Shown here: piece by piece, positions 2 through 6,027 of the stretch
How positions within the stretch are numbered: the first letter of the stretch is position 1
Layout of the letters: each line of letters begins with the position of its first letter
The notes under the pieces: generated by a model
Database searches by the model: none
The model's input: only the letters and a program-made list of their open reading frames with translations
What the model was told of the DNA's origin: nothing
Translations under genes and position numbers: made by a program
Source of the DNA: a virus
Virus record (IMG/VR): IMGVR_UViG_3300031658_000195
Coordinates: 1-20,296 of that record
DNA: 20,296 nt
Strand: one strand, 5' to 3'

Positions 2-1933
2 TACTTTGATATTATGTATGTTGTTACACGTATTATTAGATTGCTTGGTGAAGAAAAGGCAAAGCAATTATCTCCCTGGAGAAATATTCGTAAAAGTACT
101 CGCGAATTCTTTGGTAAACCACAATCAACATACCATATTTCCGGTATGACCGTGATTGACTATATGGATGCTTTCAAAAAGTTTGGTTATAAGTATGGAC
201 CGCAAGAAACATATAAACTAGACCATATCGCAAGTGTTATCCTTGGGGAAAAGAAACTTGACTATTCTGAATATGGAAATCTCACGGCGTTGTATGACCA
301 AAATCCACAACTGTATCTTGACTATAACCTTAAAGATACGTGGCTTGTTGAAGAGTTTGAAAAAGAAACTGGTTTGTTATCTCTTGTTTTAACAGTTGCA
401 TATGGTGGCGGTGTTAATTATTCTGATGCATTTGGTACTGTTGGTATATGGGAAACTACAATTTACCGTAGACTGATTAAAGAGAATAAAGTACCACATA
501 TAAAAGGCGGGCCAGGGCAAAGAGCAGGAGATTTGGTCGGCGGGTATGTAAAAGATCCAAAAGTTGGCATGCATCCTTGGATTGTATCGTTTGATTTGAA
601 TTCATTGTATCCACACCTTATGCTTCAATACAATATGTCGCCCGAAACATACATGGAAAATGAACGCCAATATGTATCTCAAGATATGATACTTGAAGAT
701 AAGTTTCAAAACGACAATCCTAACTATTCTGTAGCAGCAAACGGCGCTTGTTTTTCAAACGAAAAGAAAGGTGTAATTCCAGAAATCATTGATGAATATT
801 ATAACAATCGTAAAGTTATTAAACAAAAGATGCTTGAGGTTGAGCAAGAACTCGAAAACGCGACTGATTCAACTAAAAAATCTGATCTTAAAAGAATTAC
901 AACCCAACTACATAACTCGCAAATGGCCATCAAAATTAGCATGAATTCGTTGTACGGCGCAATGGCTAATGTATATTTTCTTTACTATATTAATGACATG
1001 GCCGAAGCAATTACTACGTCAGGGCAGTTATCTATTCAGTATGCCCAGAAGTCTGTAAACAATTATTTAAACAAAATACTTAAGACTGACGCTGATTATA
1101 TTTTCTATATTGATACTGACTCAATTTATGTTAACATGGCTCCGCTTGTTGAAAAAGGTTTTGGTACTGTTGATGTTAGTCGTAAAGAAGGCGAAGAATA
1201 TCTAGATAAAGTATGTAAACTAAAAATAGAAGGAGTAATTGAAGATGGATATATTAAATTAGCAAAGCAAGTTGGCGCATATCGCCAGGCTATGGTTATG
1301 AAACGAGAAAAAATTACTGATAAATCTATTTTCATTGCAAAGAAACGCTATATTATGAATACGCTTAATTCAGAAGGTGTTCATTACGAAAAACCAAAAG
1401 TTTCAGTAACTGGTTTGGAGTCTGTTCGGTCTTCAACTCCTGAAGTATGCCGCGATAAACTTAAAGAATCGTTCGAGGTTATTATGCAAGGCACTGAGCA
1501 AAATGTTCAAGACTTTGTTGAGGAATTCCGCCAAACATTCTACAGCCTTCCGGCCACTTCGATTGGGCGTAACAGTGGTACTGATAACATTGAAAAATAT
1601 ATGTCAAGTGGAACATATAAAAAAGGTTGCCCAATGCATGTTCGTGGGGCTATTTTATATAACAAATTTCTTAAAGAAAAAGGTCTAAACAAAACGTACG
1701 AAACCGTTAAAGGTGGCGATAAAATTAAATTTGTGTATTTAAAACTGCCAAACCCAATTCGAGAAAATATCATTTCATTCCCAAGCATTTTACCAAGTCA
1801 ATTAGGTTTAGATCAATATGTAGATTATGAAACACAATTCAATAAAGTATTCTTAAGTCCAATTGAAAGTATTCTTGAAGCTGTTGGTTGGAATGCTGTA
1901 AAAGTGGATACTCTTGAAAACTTTTTTGTATAA
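2..1933 (+). CDS. 43: T4-type family B DNA polymerase gp43, C-terminal part (5' end outside window)
   Basis: Replicative DNA polymerase of the T4/RB69 family. The reading frame is open to the window edge (first full codon at 2), so the protein is truncated and the ATG at 14 is internal. The first residues, YFDI, align with the ExoII region of RB69 polymerase (ESFDVPYI), so roughly 220 N-terminal residues are missing. Numbering from the ATG at 14: ExoIII-like YLDYNLKD near 101-108, motif A FDLNSLYP at 193-200, motif B KxxxNSLYG at 307-315 and motif C YIDTDS at 365-370 with both metal-binding aspartates. The protein ends VDTLENFFV, matching the C-terminal clamp-binding tail of T4 gp43 (SLDFLFG). 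It is followed after 12 nt by a small coiled-coil gene. Unlike in T4, it does not directly follow regA within this window. Identification is very secure. Confidence 0.97.
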   Translation, partial: YFDIMYVVTRIIRLLGEEKAKQLSPWRNIRKSTREFFGKPQSTYHISGMTVIDYMDAFKKFGYKYGPQETYKLDHIASVILGEKKLDYSEYGNLTALYDQNPQLYLDYNLKDTWLVEEFEKETGLLSLVLTVAYGGGVNYSDAFGTVGIWETTIYRRLIKENKVPHIKGGPGQRAGDLVGGYVKDPKVGMHPWIVSFDLNSLYPHLMLQYNMSPETYMENERQYVSQDMILEDKFQNDNPNYSVAANGACFSNEKKGVIPEIIDEYYNNRKVIKQKMLEVEQELENATDSTKKSDLKRITTQLHNSQMAIKISMNSLYGAMANVYFLYYINDMAEAITTSGQLSIQYAQKSVNNYLNKILKTDADYIFYIDTDSIYVNMAPLVEKGFGTVDVSRKEGEEYLDKVCKLKIEGVIEDGYIKLAKQVGAYRQAMVMKREKITDKSIFIAKKRYIMNTLNSEGVHYEKPKVSVTGLESVRSSTPEVCRDKLKESFEVIMQGTEQNVQDFVEEFRQTFYSLPATSIGRNSGTDNIEKYMSSGTYKKGCPMHVRGAILYNKFLKEKGLNKTYETVKGGDKIKFVYLKLPNPIRENIISFPSILPSQLGLDQYVDYETQFNKVFLSPIESILEAVGWNAVKVDTLENFFV

Positions 1934-2156: not shown

Positions 2157-2191
2157 AATTTATATAATGAATAATGAAGGAGAATATAATA

Positions 2192-2602
2192 ATGGCTGAT
2201 ATGGCAAACGACATGTACATGATGCACCACAAGTTTGGTGTACGAGAATGGTTTGAAGAAAACAAGCACAACAGCGAACTCATGGAAAATTATCTTAATT
2301 TTAGATTGGCGATGTGTAAAGAAGAACTCGATGAAACATTCGATGCAATGGAAGCAAAAGATCCAGAAGAAATTGTAGATGGTCTTATTGATCTGTGCGT
2401 TTTTGCTATTGGCACACTTGATATTTTTGGTGTTGATGTTAATGAAGCATGGGATCGAGTTTATACTGCAAACATGGCAAAAGAAGTTGGTATTAAAGAA
2501 GGTCGACCAAATCCGTTCGGCGTGCCAGATTTGGTGAAACCGTCTGGATGGACAGCTCCAGACCATCTCGACAATCATGGTGATATCGACGTCGCACTAT
2601 AA
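2192..2602 (+). CDS. MazG-like nucleotide pyrophosphohydrolase
   Basis: All-alpha MazG/HisE-type NTP pyrophosphohydrolase, expected to cleave a (d)NTP to the monophosphate and pyrophosphate. Within 136 residues the metal-binding pairs typical of the fold are visible: ExxE at 45-48 (KEELDETF) and ExxD at 60-63, followed by the helix GLIDLCVFAIGTLD. The start chosen is the ATG at 2192, 8 nt after AAGGAGA, not the in-frame ATG at 2174, which precedes that ribosome binding site. The gene has its own promoter and ends before a strong terminator. T4 uses the all-alpha dCTPase gp56 to keep dCTP out of hydroxymethylcytosine DNA. No gp56 was recognised here, so this enzyme could fill that role; that is inference and the substrate cannot be read from sequence. 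Confidence 0.85.
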   Translation: MADMANDMYMMHHKFGVREWFEENKHNSELMENYLNFRLAMCKEELDETFDAMEAKDPEEIVDGLIDLCVFAIGTLDIFGVDVNEAWDRVYTANMAKEVGIKEGRPNPFGVPDLVKPSGWTAPDHLDNHGDIDVAL

Positions 2603-2632
2603 AAAAATTAAATGAGTGAATAAATAGAATTA

Positions 2633-2659
2633 GGCAGAGCAATCGCTCTGTCTTTTTTT
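2633..2659 (+). terminator. intrinsic terminator after the MazG-like gene
   Basis: The arms GGCAGAGC and GCTCTGTC form an 8-bp stem (one G-T pair) around an AATC loop, followed directly by seven T. This is a classic rho-independent terminator 30 nt after the stop of the MazG-like gene. No clear promoter lies between it and the next gene, so it may be leaky or act as an attenuator. Confidence 0.85.
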
Positions 2660-2667
2660 ACGTGAGC

Positions 2668-2684
2668 GACGGGGTAAAGCCGTC
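2668..2684 (+). promoter_or_regulatory. leader hairpin upstream of the phosphate permease
   Basis: GACGG and CCGTC form a 5-bp GC-rich stem with a 7-nt loop. It ends 6 nt before the AAGGAG ribosome binding site (2690-2695) of the permease. The position suits a translational control element, but the stem is short and the function is inferred from position only. Confidence 0.35.
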
Positions 2685-2701
2685 AAGCAAAGGAGAAAAC
2701 A

Positions 2702-3661
2702 ATGGACGCACTCACAATATGGATGGCGATAGGATTTCTATTCGCGGCCTATGCTGTTATAGCAAACGATTCTGTACAAACTCTCGGTACATGGATTGCA
2801 TCAAATAACGAGAGATTTAATTGGAAAACTATGTGGGCAGCAGCTAGTGCTGTTTTACTTTATACTATTTGGTATGGGTGGTATATGAATGGCGGCGATA
2901 TATCTTACGGCCGTCTTAATAAAATACCATTTCAAGAAGTGCAATGGTATCACGCAATGGCCCCAGCTGTATTGTTGCTGTTAACGCGCTATGGTGTTCC
3001 AGTTTCAACATCATTTTTGGTATTAAGCGCATTTGCTAGTACGTTTGTATTAGAACAAATGTTAATGAAATCGATGATGGGTTATGTTGTTGCGGCTACT
3101 GCGGCATATGGTATTTGGTATGTCGTTAGCCGTTTGCTAGATGAAAGTAATCCAGTTAAGGAAGAACATAAAGGCTATTGGCGCGTAGCACAATGGGTAA
3201 CTACGGGGTTTCTGTGGTTTACTTGGTTATCTCACGATATGGCTAACATTGCTGTATTCTTGCCACGTACACTTGATATTCCATTAATGATCATGGTGTC
3301 TAGTGTGTTTGTTATAGGTCTAGGATTTATGTTTCGTGAAGGCGGCGGTAAAATCCAGCAAATCGTATTAGAAAAACACAATACTAGATATATACGTTCC
3401 GCCACAATTATTGATCTTGTCTATTGGGCAATTTTGTTCTTCTTCAAAGAACTTAATGATATTCCAATGAGTACGACATGGGTTTTTGTAGGTATGCTCG
3501 CGGGGCGAGAATTTGCTATAGCAAGTTTCATGGGCAAAAAGAAAACAAAAAGTGTGTTCCCAATTGTAGGTAGAGACTTTGGGAAAATGATGATTGGTTT
3601 ATCAGCATCGCTTGCTATCGTATTGTTAATACATTATGTGATTGTCCCGGCCGGACTATAA
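2702..3661 (+). CDS. PiT-family inorganic phosphate permease
   Basis: Integral membrane protein of 319 residues with about nine or ten hydrophobic segments (for example near 4-21, 43-62, 102-118, 127-143, 165-183, 192-209, 236-250, 258-274 and 294-313). It carries the duplicated signatures of the PiT/Pho4 family: ANDSVQTLGT at 21-30 and the diverged repeat SHDMANIAVFLPR at 177-189, each followed by a serine/threonine motif, GVPVSTSF at 98-105 and DIPMSTTW at 253-260. PiT proteins import phosphate with cations across the inner membrane. As an auxiliary metabolic gene it would raise phosphate supply for phage DNA synthesis. The ATG follows AAGGAG at a good distance. A terminator precedes it and another follows it, so it is a one-gene unit. 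Both signatures deviate from the usual GANDVANA, so transport activity is inferred. Confidence 0.85.
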   Translation: MDALTIWMAIGFLFAAYAVIANDSVQTLGTWIASNNERFNWKTMWAAASAVLLYTIWYGWYMNGGDISYGRLNKIPFQEVQWYHAMAPAVLLLLTRYGVPVSTSFLVLSAFASTFVLEQMLMKSMMGYVVAATAAYGIWYVVSRLLDESNPVKEEHKGYWRVAQWVTTGFLWFTWLSHDMANIAVFLPRTLDIPLMIMVSSVFVIGLGFMFREGGGKIQQIVLEKHNTRYIRSATIIDLVYWAILFFFKELNDIPMSTTWVFVGMLAGREFAIASFMGKKKTKSVFPIVGRDFGKMMIGLSASLAIVLLIHYVIVPAGL

Positions 3662-4365: not shown

Positions 4366-5058
4366 TTGAGTATTATTTGGGACAGACTAATAGAGTGCAA
4401 AGATGAAATTATTAATATTTTTAATGAACGAGCAAATGAATTTGACGAACCAGGCTTGGTGCACTTCAACAGCGACACCTGGGTCAATCGCGTCTGGCAT
4501 AATGATCATGTACGCAGGGCACATATTGATGTAGTAGACGCACGTGATACTAAAGGCTTATGGATGATGCATGTTTGCGTTTTCCCTGTGCTTAACAATA
4601 ACGGTCCTATATATGGCTTTGACGTTATTGCTGGCAAAAACAAAATGACAGGTGCTTTTCACGACTTTTCAGCAAGCAGTGGCGGTATTGATCATCCTAT
4701 GATTGTAGGATACAAAAAATCGGTCGCTGACTTTATTCCTAAAAAACAGCGGCAATTACCCGAATGGGCAACTAATATCTTTACAGATAAAATGCTGGCT
4801 GCTGGCAATGTAAATTCAGAAGAAGAAGCAGTTGCCATTATCACGCTAGCGCAGAATAATCTACGAGATTACTTTAGTAAAATTGGTGAGTTTACAGGTA
4901 AGGGCGAATACAACGAAACTGTTGCTGCACAAAACTACTACTGCCACAATCAACAACAAAATCCACACACTCCTCGCACAATGAAGAGTTTGGGTTTGGA
5001 CGAAGCAGATGTAGACAAGTTTTGTACTGACATGCTGTTTCCTAAAATTAATGATTAA
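4366..5058 (+). CDS. pcyX: ferredoxin-dependent bilin reductase (PcyA/PcyX type)
   Basis: Member of the ferredoxin-dependent bilin reductase family, which reduces biliverdin IXalpha to phycobilins using electrons from ferredoxin. All 230 residues align by eye with cyanobacterial PcyA. RAHIDVVDA matches the LHLELAK region, MMHVCVFP (H69) matches the segment with catalytic His88, PIYGFDVIAG (D86) matches the Asp105 segment, and HDFS matches ADLS. RQLPEWATNIF matches the RELPPWGDIF region, and YYCHNQQQNPHTPR at 191-204 matches HYCTKQQQNDKTRR. The position of PcyA Glu76 is Asp55 here. The start is TTG, 5 nt after GAGG; no better in-frame start exists. No heme oxygenase or ferredoxin gene lies in the window, so biliverdin and reductant would come from the host or from elsewhere in the genome. 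PcyA-like reductases called PcyX, making phycoerythrobilin, are known from uncultured marine phages. PcyX rather than PcyA is inferred from phage context and the E-to-D change. Confidence 0.92.
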   Translation: MSIIWDRLIECKDEIINIFNERANEFDEPGLVHFNSDTWVNRVWHNDHVRRAHIDVVDARDTKGLWMMHVCVFPVLNNNGPIYGFDVIAGKNKMTGAFHDFSASSGGIDHPMIVGYKKSVADFIPKKQRQLPEWATNIFTDKMLAAGNVNSEEEAVAIITLAQNNLRDYFSKIGEFTGKGEYNETVAAQNYYCHNQQQNPHTPRTMKSLGLDEADVDKFCTDMLFPKIND

Positions 5059-5359: not shown

Positions 5360-5545
5360 TTATTTATTTACTTCGATTGACTTTGGACATACACTCATAT
5401 AACGTATTGATATTTGGCGAGGGTTGCTACTTATGCTCTGGCCTATTTCATTTACAACAGAATACCTACATATTTTTACTAAAGTATTACTATTATTAAT
5501 CCACGCATGAGAAAGAGTCACGGAATATAATAACAGGATTACCAT
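5360..5545 (-). CDS. small secreted protein with signal peptide
   Basis: A 61-residue product beginning MVILLLYSVTLSHAW. It has a short N-terminus, a hydrophobic core and an A-x-W junction that looks like a signal peptidase I site (LSHA|W). The mature part has two cysteines (ICRY and SVCPKS) that could form a disulfide in the periplasm. The start at 5545 overlaps the stop of the upstream minus-strand gene by 7 nt (ATGGTAA), which argues for translational coupling; a GGGG run lies just before the ATG. The frame continues upstream to an ATG at 5599, but that would place 18 extra residues before the signal peptide. No lipobox cysteine is visible. The function is unknown; an envelope or lysis-related role is a guess. 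Confidence 0.65.
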   Translation of the reverse strand: MVILLLYSVTLSHAWINNSNTLVKICRYSVVNEIGQSISSNPRQISIRYMSVCPKSIEVNK

Positions 5546-6027
5546 GCCCCAGCACCTATTCCTATTAGCCAACCACCACCTGCTATTACTGCCATGCAAA
5601 GTATAATTAAGATTGTGACCACAATCCCATCCATTAAAGCTTTTTTTCTTTCGATTTGTTTATATACTGTTTCTTGTCGTCTGGCCCGGATTTTTTTTCT
5701 CATTTGTTTGAGTTCGTCCATAGTACCCCAACCAAATCGCATATTAAGTAACTGCGCTAATTCTTTTTCTTGTTCAACTAATTTCTTTTCGTGAATTAAG
5801 ATTGCTAATGCTTCTTCTTCAACGCTTCCAGCCTGAAATAATTTTTTAAAAATTGGAGGATTTTTACTTTCAGCTTGGGCATGTCTAAAGTCAGCTGCAG
5901 CTGTATACCACTTCCCAAGTTGTCCTGCCACGTTTTCAAATTCTTGGCCGGCGTGAACAAATCTTTTAACAGTATTAAACGCGGTGGTGGCAGCTGCAAT
6001 CGCTGTAATCGGATCAATCATTGTCAT
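5539..6027 (-). CDS. conserved-looking tail-anchored coiled-coil protein
   Basis: Protein of 162 residues on the minus strand. The N-terminus MTMIDPITAIAAATTAFNTV is followed by a charged helical region (about 65-130, including SVEEEALAILIHEKK and MRKKIRARRQE). One C-terminal membrane segment lies near 134-158 (IVVTILIILCMAVIAGGGWLIGIGAG). This gives a cytoplasmic coiled-coil domain with a C-terminal anchor. Proteins starting MDPxSAIAxATTAF with the same layout are, from memory, common in marine T4-like phages, function unknown. The start may be the ATG at 6027 or 6021; the AGG upstream fits the second at 9 nt better than the first at 3 nt. It lies behind the only TATAAATA box found on the minus strand and is coupled to the secreted-protein gene, so late expression is likely. 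Confidence 0.85.
   Translation of the reverse strand: MTMIDPITAIAAATTAFNTVKRFVHAGQEFENVAGQLGKWYTAAADFRHAQAESKNPPIFKKLFQAGSVEEEALAILIHEKKLVEQEKELAQLLNMRFGWGTMDELKQMRKKIRARRQETVYKQIERKKALMDGIVVTILIILCMAVIAGGGWLIGIGAGAW

Follow-up and report, generated by a model that had tools for sequence, protein, structure and literature searches.

The window, meaning the whole 20,296-base virus record analysed here, carries on its plus strand at 2702..3661 a gene for a divergent PiT-type phosphate permease of 319 amino acids (pit), with an ATG start and a stop codon, which was assigned from a PHO4 match, an alignment, an AF2 model and a Foldseek search. The gene sits between a mazG-like nucleotide pyrophosphohydrolase gene (2174..2602, +) and small ORFs without assigned function, within a T4-type replication region that comprises gp43, sliding clamp, clamp loader, thymidylate synthase, dCMP deaminase and dUTPase genes. 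The T4-type DNA polymerase gene gp43 (2..1933, +), whose 5' end is cut by the window, marks the phage context; its product shares 45-46% identity with the best-matching proteins, which are cyanomyovirus-type polymerases and that of Phage C48C1. The interval before pit contains, all on the plus strand, the sequence ATAAATA, which resembles a T4-type late promoter (2620..2626), a terminator-like hairpin followed by a T-run (2632..2653), a conserved RNA hairpin element of 28 nt (2662..2689) and, directly after it, the ribosome-binding site AAGGAG (2690..2695). A related 221-kb phage contig keeps the order gp43, small ORF, mazG and RNA element, followed by pstS and pit.

The initial annotation had described a 319-residue membrane protein with duplicated AND/HDMAN and PVSTS/PMSTT signatures, and this was confirmed by the ORF, an alignment of 117 relatives and the helix layout of the AF2 model. 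The first repeat contains the signature AND-SVQ at residues 21-26 (2762..2779, +; A21-N22-D23...Q26), in which N22, D23 and Q26 are invariant among the 117 sequences, and a PVSTS loop at residues 100-104 (2999..3013, +; P100-V-S-T-S104), which is invariant at residues 100-103 (PVST) and breaks a helix in the model. The second repeat contains HDMAN at residues 178-182 (3233..3247, +; H178-D179-M-A181-N182), which aligns with NNIAN of canonical PiT and is invariant at D179, A181 and N182, and a PMSTT loop at residues 255-259 (3464..3478, +; P255-M-S-T-T259), which is invariant throughout and again coincides with a helix break. The duplicated P-[VM]-S-T-[TS] loop by which PiT / PHO4 proteins are recognised is therefore present, and the GANDVAN-type signature occurs in two copies at the right places, altered to ANDSVQ and LSHDMAN. 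The pit gene is under purifying selection, with a dN/dS below about 0.07 at saturated synonymous sites.

PHO4 (PF01384) was the only Pfam family matched by the window protein, no other transporter family being hit, but the score of 20 bits (E 3.8e-4) lies below the gathering cut-off of 33.7; an NCBIfam profile search of the protein returned nothing. The same family was matched by 13 of 13 viral members tested and by 16/17 viral and cellular members. For comparison, one cellular member (L089) scored 28.9 bits, and a score of 207 bits was obtained for the canonical PiT that some cells with a subfamily member also encode. In a single BLASTP comparison with a canonical PiT from a marine alphaproteobacterial genome, the first three signatures aligned in order over residues 11-188 (E 7e-6), and profile-profile comparison with canonical PiT gave an E-value of 4.9e-5 at a probability of 68%. 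Given the sole Pfam match, its consistency across family members and the ordered BLASTP alignment, the repeated PiT signatures exceed chance.

PDB sequence searches with the family yielded nothing useful, and structural evidence was obtained from an AF2 model built from the 117 relatives, none of which is a canonical PiT. An earlier input of 13 near-identical viral rows had given a pLDDT of 37, and a confident model was reached when cellular rows were added (pLDDT 83.7, pTM 0.82). This model has a repeated 4+4 helix layout in which each P-x-S-T loop interrupts the third helix of its half. Foldseek against the PDB returned TmPiT (6L85) as the sole confident match (probability 1.00, E 3.7e-4, TM 0.64 on the query), the next matches having probabilities of at most 0.12; the BFVD viral models contained no match to the pit model. 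The 6L85 match and the 4+4 helices identify a PiT fold with two repeated halves, thereby bearing out the PiT/Pho4 type first proposed for this gene, and a profile comparison aligned the two halves with their P-x-S-T loops in register, though weakly (P-value 0.033, probability 1.5%). We conclude that the window protein belongs to a divergent subfamily of its own that has the PiT fold, and we do not call it a member of PF01384 because its score is below the family cut-off.

The RNA element before pit (model R1; GTGAGCGACGGGGTAAAGCCGTCAAGCA) consists of GUGAGC, a 5-bp stem enclosing a GGUAAA-type loop, and AAGCA. Among 38 distinct relatives the five base pairs of the stem are paired in 99.5% of cells, and all five covary, with both sides changing in some sequences; shifted pairings collapse. 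Extension of the stem by two outer pairs was unsupported by covariation. Model R1, which was built with the window among its sequences, gives the window a score of 49.8 bits (E 3e-9). The element matched no Rfam family above the gathering threshold, and a permissive threshold gave weak matches far below gathering. An exact scan located the element in 99 stretches and a degenerate scan in at least 120. After removal of redundancy there were 129 sites, of which 118 lie immediately before pit, seven before an operon with a later pit, four are cut off and none is elsewhere, so that each of the informative sites (125 of 125) stands in front of pit or of an operon that includes it. The element is previously undescribed and was found only in these positions; it is carried by most phage pit copies in the window's clade. 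Whole-contig searches recovered it in 18 of 30 viral contigs (seven of them chosen for having it), once in 16 and twice in two, whereas Phage C48C1 yielded none; the idea that it serves as a translation signal of phages in general was rejected on these grounds. An accident of one locus was likewise rejected, as the 129 sites comprise 21 distinct cores. Five cellular genomes gave one marginal match only (E 0.81), and the cellular pit-family loci tested had no such element.

Where the window has the terminator-like hairpin at 2632..2653, many relatives have a second hairpin that covaries and has a conserved loop of the ACGUCGA type; this second hairpin, with conserved loop and covarying stem, was found in 67 of 161 contexts. 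The R1 hairpin presumably controls how strongly the transporter mRNA is translated or how stable it is. A more ambitious proposal, which we regard as rather unlikely, is that the hairpin, often behind the second conserved-loop hairpin, would represent a new phage-specific class of regulatory RNA that senses phosphate status, directly or via a bound protein, and acts as a translational switch for phosphate-import operons in phages. At four loci (L284, L303, L322 and L085), terminator-like hairpins lie just upstream of pit and their loop repeats the GGUAAA-type sequence of the element.

Two DNA signals were enriched upstream of pit. The late-promoter-like box NATAAATA occurs in 59/131 phage pit upstreams as against 291/1682 control upstreams. 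An 18-bp Pho-box-type repeat was found in 17 of 138 phage pit upstreams and 4 of 1738 control genes, and its TTAAC version in 10 of 68 cellular pit copies and 1 of 822 controls. These figures correspond to odds ratios of about 60-fold in phages and about 140-fold in cells, for related sequences that are not independent, so P values overstate the enrichment. The CTGTCAT form of the Pho box was not found in the window.

Relatives of pit are encoded on at least 399 IMG/VR stretches in one scan, with further ones from other queries. In contrast, tblastn of three subfamily members against 50,697 deposited phage records found none, although records very near the window may be outside this search. 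A canonical PiT gave only weak partial matches in the same records, mostly in bacterial-sized or very small ones. Thus pit is common in uncultured ocean phages and absent from the deposited phage records searched, and isolate studies would therefore have missed it. Among 26 pit contigs checked, gp23 was present on 7, terminase on 10 and phoH on 14, and those bearing gp23 or terminase include contigs of 316, 328 and 343 kb. Since cellular relatives exist and pit lies on genuine phage genomes (the gp23/TerL contigs), it qualifies as an auxiliary metabolic gene. Six bacterial genome bins (L083-L088) have pit copies in the phage clade, and three carry gp43 on the same stretch; they are probably phage contigs binned with cells and were counted as phage contigs.

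The initial annotation had suggested looking for host-like relatives, and these are present in cellular genomes: one scan of bacterial genomes found homologues in marine Alphaproteobacteria, SAR11 and Flavobacteriales that share 57-66% identity with the window protein. In the tree, the window lies inside a phage-only clade of 21 rows (SH-aLRT 100), and other phage copies fall among Flavobacteriales and beside alphaproteobacterial sequences. A single clade of all phage rows was rejected (p-AU 2e-35), as was a single phage clade without the Flavobacteriales-type phage (p-AU 0.002); therefore at least three phage groups hold pit separately, and phages probably gained it on three or more occasions, the tree being unrooted with respect to the direction of transfer.

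Pfam-confirmed neighbours of cellular pit genes include PhoB/PhoR-type regulators, a phosphate-selective porin (Porin_O_P), Ppk1, PhoU_div (DUF47) together with canonical PHO4, a Metallophos and GT4 pair, and an SBF-family transporter. We take the Metallophos and glycosyltransferase pair to be PlcP/Agt, which act in lipid remodelling under phosphate shortage, and the SBF-family protein to be ACR3-like. In some cells canonical PiT coexists with the divergent subfamily, a few genes away. At two cellular loci (L091 and L092) a polyphosphate kinase gene comes immediately after pit, and a gene encoding a small secreted protein of barrel-like appearance comes before it. Pit and phosphate islands have been reported from HIMB59-group genomes (PMC10734472). 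In some phages a PstS-type gene (PF12849) lies just upstream of pit, and other operon partners encode signal-peptide proteins that resemble small outer-membrane barrels, a reading made by eye for proteins with no Pfam match. The Flavobacteriales-type phage pit genes (L243-L248) follow, at a distance of 8-13 nt, a gene whose product is a secreted barrel-like protein.

We consider it likely, with a probability of roughly 0.8, that pit encodes an inner-membrane inorganic phosphate importer of the PiT fold, made by a T4-like phage in a marine Gram-negative host and supplying phosphate for phage DNA synthesis. A T4-like phage would express the permease in the inner membrane of the infected host, the permease would keep phosphate entering the cell, and the imported phosphate would feed phage DNA synthesis. 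We infer phosphate as the substrate, import as the direction, Na+ or H+ as the coupling ion and the type of host. A marine Gram-negative heterotroph is the host suggested by the related cellular copies and by the partners that resemble outer-membrane proteins, and the phosphate-gene neighbours and Pho-box-like repeats of homologues favour phosphate import as the best reading of the sequence evidence. Against a phosphate importer stand the sub-cut-off PHO4 score, the lack of an NCBIfam match, the altered GANDVAN signatures, the absence of a CTGTCAT box from the window, and the fact that the neighbourhood evidence comes mostly from cellular homologues rather than from the window phage. The description of the permease as low-affinity was unsupported, and the connection with regulation under phosphate starvation speaks against presuming low affinity.

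Alternatively, as already cautioned for this gene, the PiT-fold permease may carry a different anion; sulfate or arsenate would be examples. CysP of Bacillus is a PiT-family sulfate permease, both GANDVAN-type signatures here are altered relative to canonical PiT, a canonical PiT a few genes away in some of the same cells would allow a division of labour, and the SBF family, whose members adjoin some Flavobacteriales copies, includes arsenite exporters. The neighbours and upstream repeats, however, indicate phosphate across unrelated lineages (PhoB/PhoR-type, Porin_O_P, Ppk1, PhoU_div), a PstS-type gene is paired with pit in some phages, and no sulfur-assimilation neighbour was recognised among the gene clusters examined. 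This evidence answers the caution indirectly, favouring phosphate without proving it, and we judge another substrate unlikely. The PhoB/PhoR-type gene pair that directly precedes pit in many Flavobacteriales and some other cells, and the PhoU-like DUF47 gene near it in others, would also fit a protein that acts mainly as a phosphate-status receptor, altering host PhoR/PhoB signalling instead of importing in bulk. Those neighbours are cellular and not phage genes, co-regulation explains their co-location equally well, and the transporter signature loops are strongly constrained, which makes such a role very improbable.

That pit is host DNA misassigned to a virus, and not a phage gene, is the least credible of these explanations and is effectively refuted by related pit genes on the same contigs as gp23 and terminase. 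IMG/VR can include misclassified contigs, two related contigs (L178 and L181) are short, and neither gp23 nor terminase was found on the L180 contig; yet the window itself holds gp43, clamp, clamp loader, dUTPase, thymidylate synthase and mazG, and none of the cellular loci tested showed the RNA element of its clade. With gp43 and mazG flanking the gene, its phage origin, as originally proposed, stands.

Compared with the PiT / PHO4 family (PF01384; TmPiT 6L85, with E. coli PitA as the usual reference), the window protein shares the fold, the order of the repeats, the PVSTT-type loops and the conserved aspartates and AN residues, but it falls below the score cut-off, its GANDVAN signatures read ANDSVQ and LSHDMAN, and at 319 aa against about 400 in TmPiT it represents a distinct marine subfamily. 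Virus-borne PHO4-type genes are found in algal viruses, and Monier et al. 2012 described a single phage-derived pho4 clone (JF837193, 1139 nt) near the alphaproteobacterium HIMB59 (PMC3429862), a published placement that fits the cellular groups found here. Whereas that clone, likened here by its published placement, is one case, the present gene occurs on hundreds of contigs in several separate phage groups, accompanied by promoter and RNA elements. Phosphate acquisition is likewise served by cyanophage pstS and other phosphate genes of phages, and some relatives have a PstS-type gene ahead of pit, but what is encoded here is a secondary permease that has a leader RNA of its own, and not a binding protein alone. 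The manA and wcaG leader RNAs of marine phages, known from marine metagenomes and T4-like cyanophages (PMC2864571), are also structured RNAs in the 5' leaders of metabolic genes; the present element differs in having no Rfam match and in being a short hairpin associated with a single gene family.

Phosphate limits growth across much of the ocean, and phage DNA demands much phosphate. A recurrent single-gene importer with a leader RNA and, in relatives, periplasmic and outer-membrane partners would allow the control of phosphate uptake by phages to be tested beyond the cyanophages. Being small and strictly gene-linked, the hairpin lends itself to an in vitro search for a ligand or protein partner.

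Elsewhere in the window, a gene at 4366-5058 encodes a ferredoxin-dependent bilin reductase (PF05996, E 6e-13). Genes resembling those for heme oxygenase and 5-aminolevulinate synthase occur on related phage contigs, and phages with such genes have been described (PMC11480375). A long minus-strand ORF at 5539-6027, amid a plus-strand region, matches PHROG 32327, which has no assigned function. A 506-aa ORF at 10819-12339 matches nucleotidyl transferases (PF00483) at its N-terminus, and its remainder appears kinase-like by eye.
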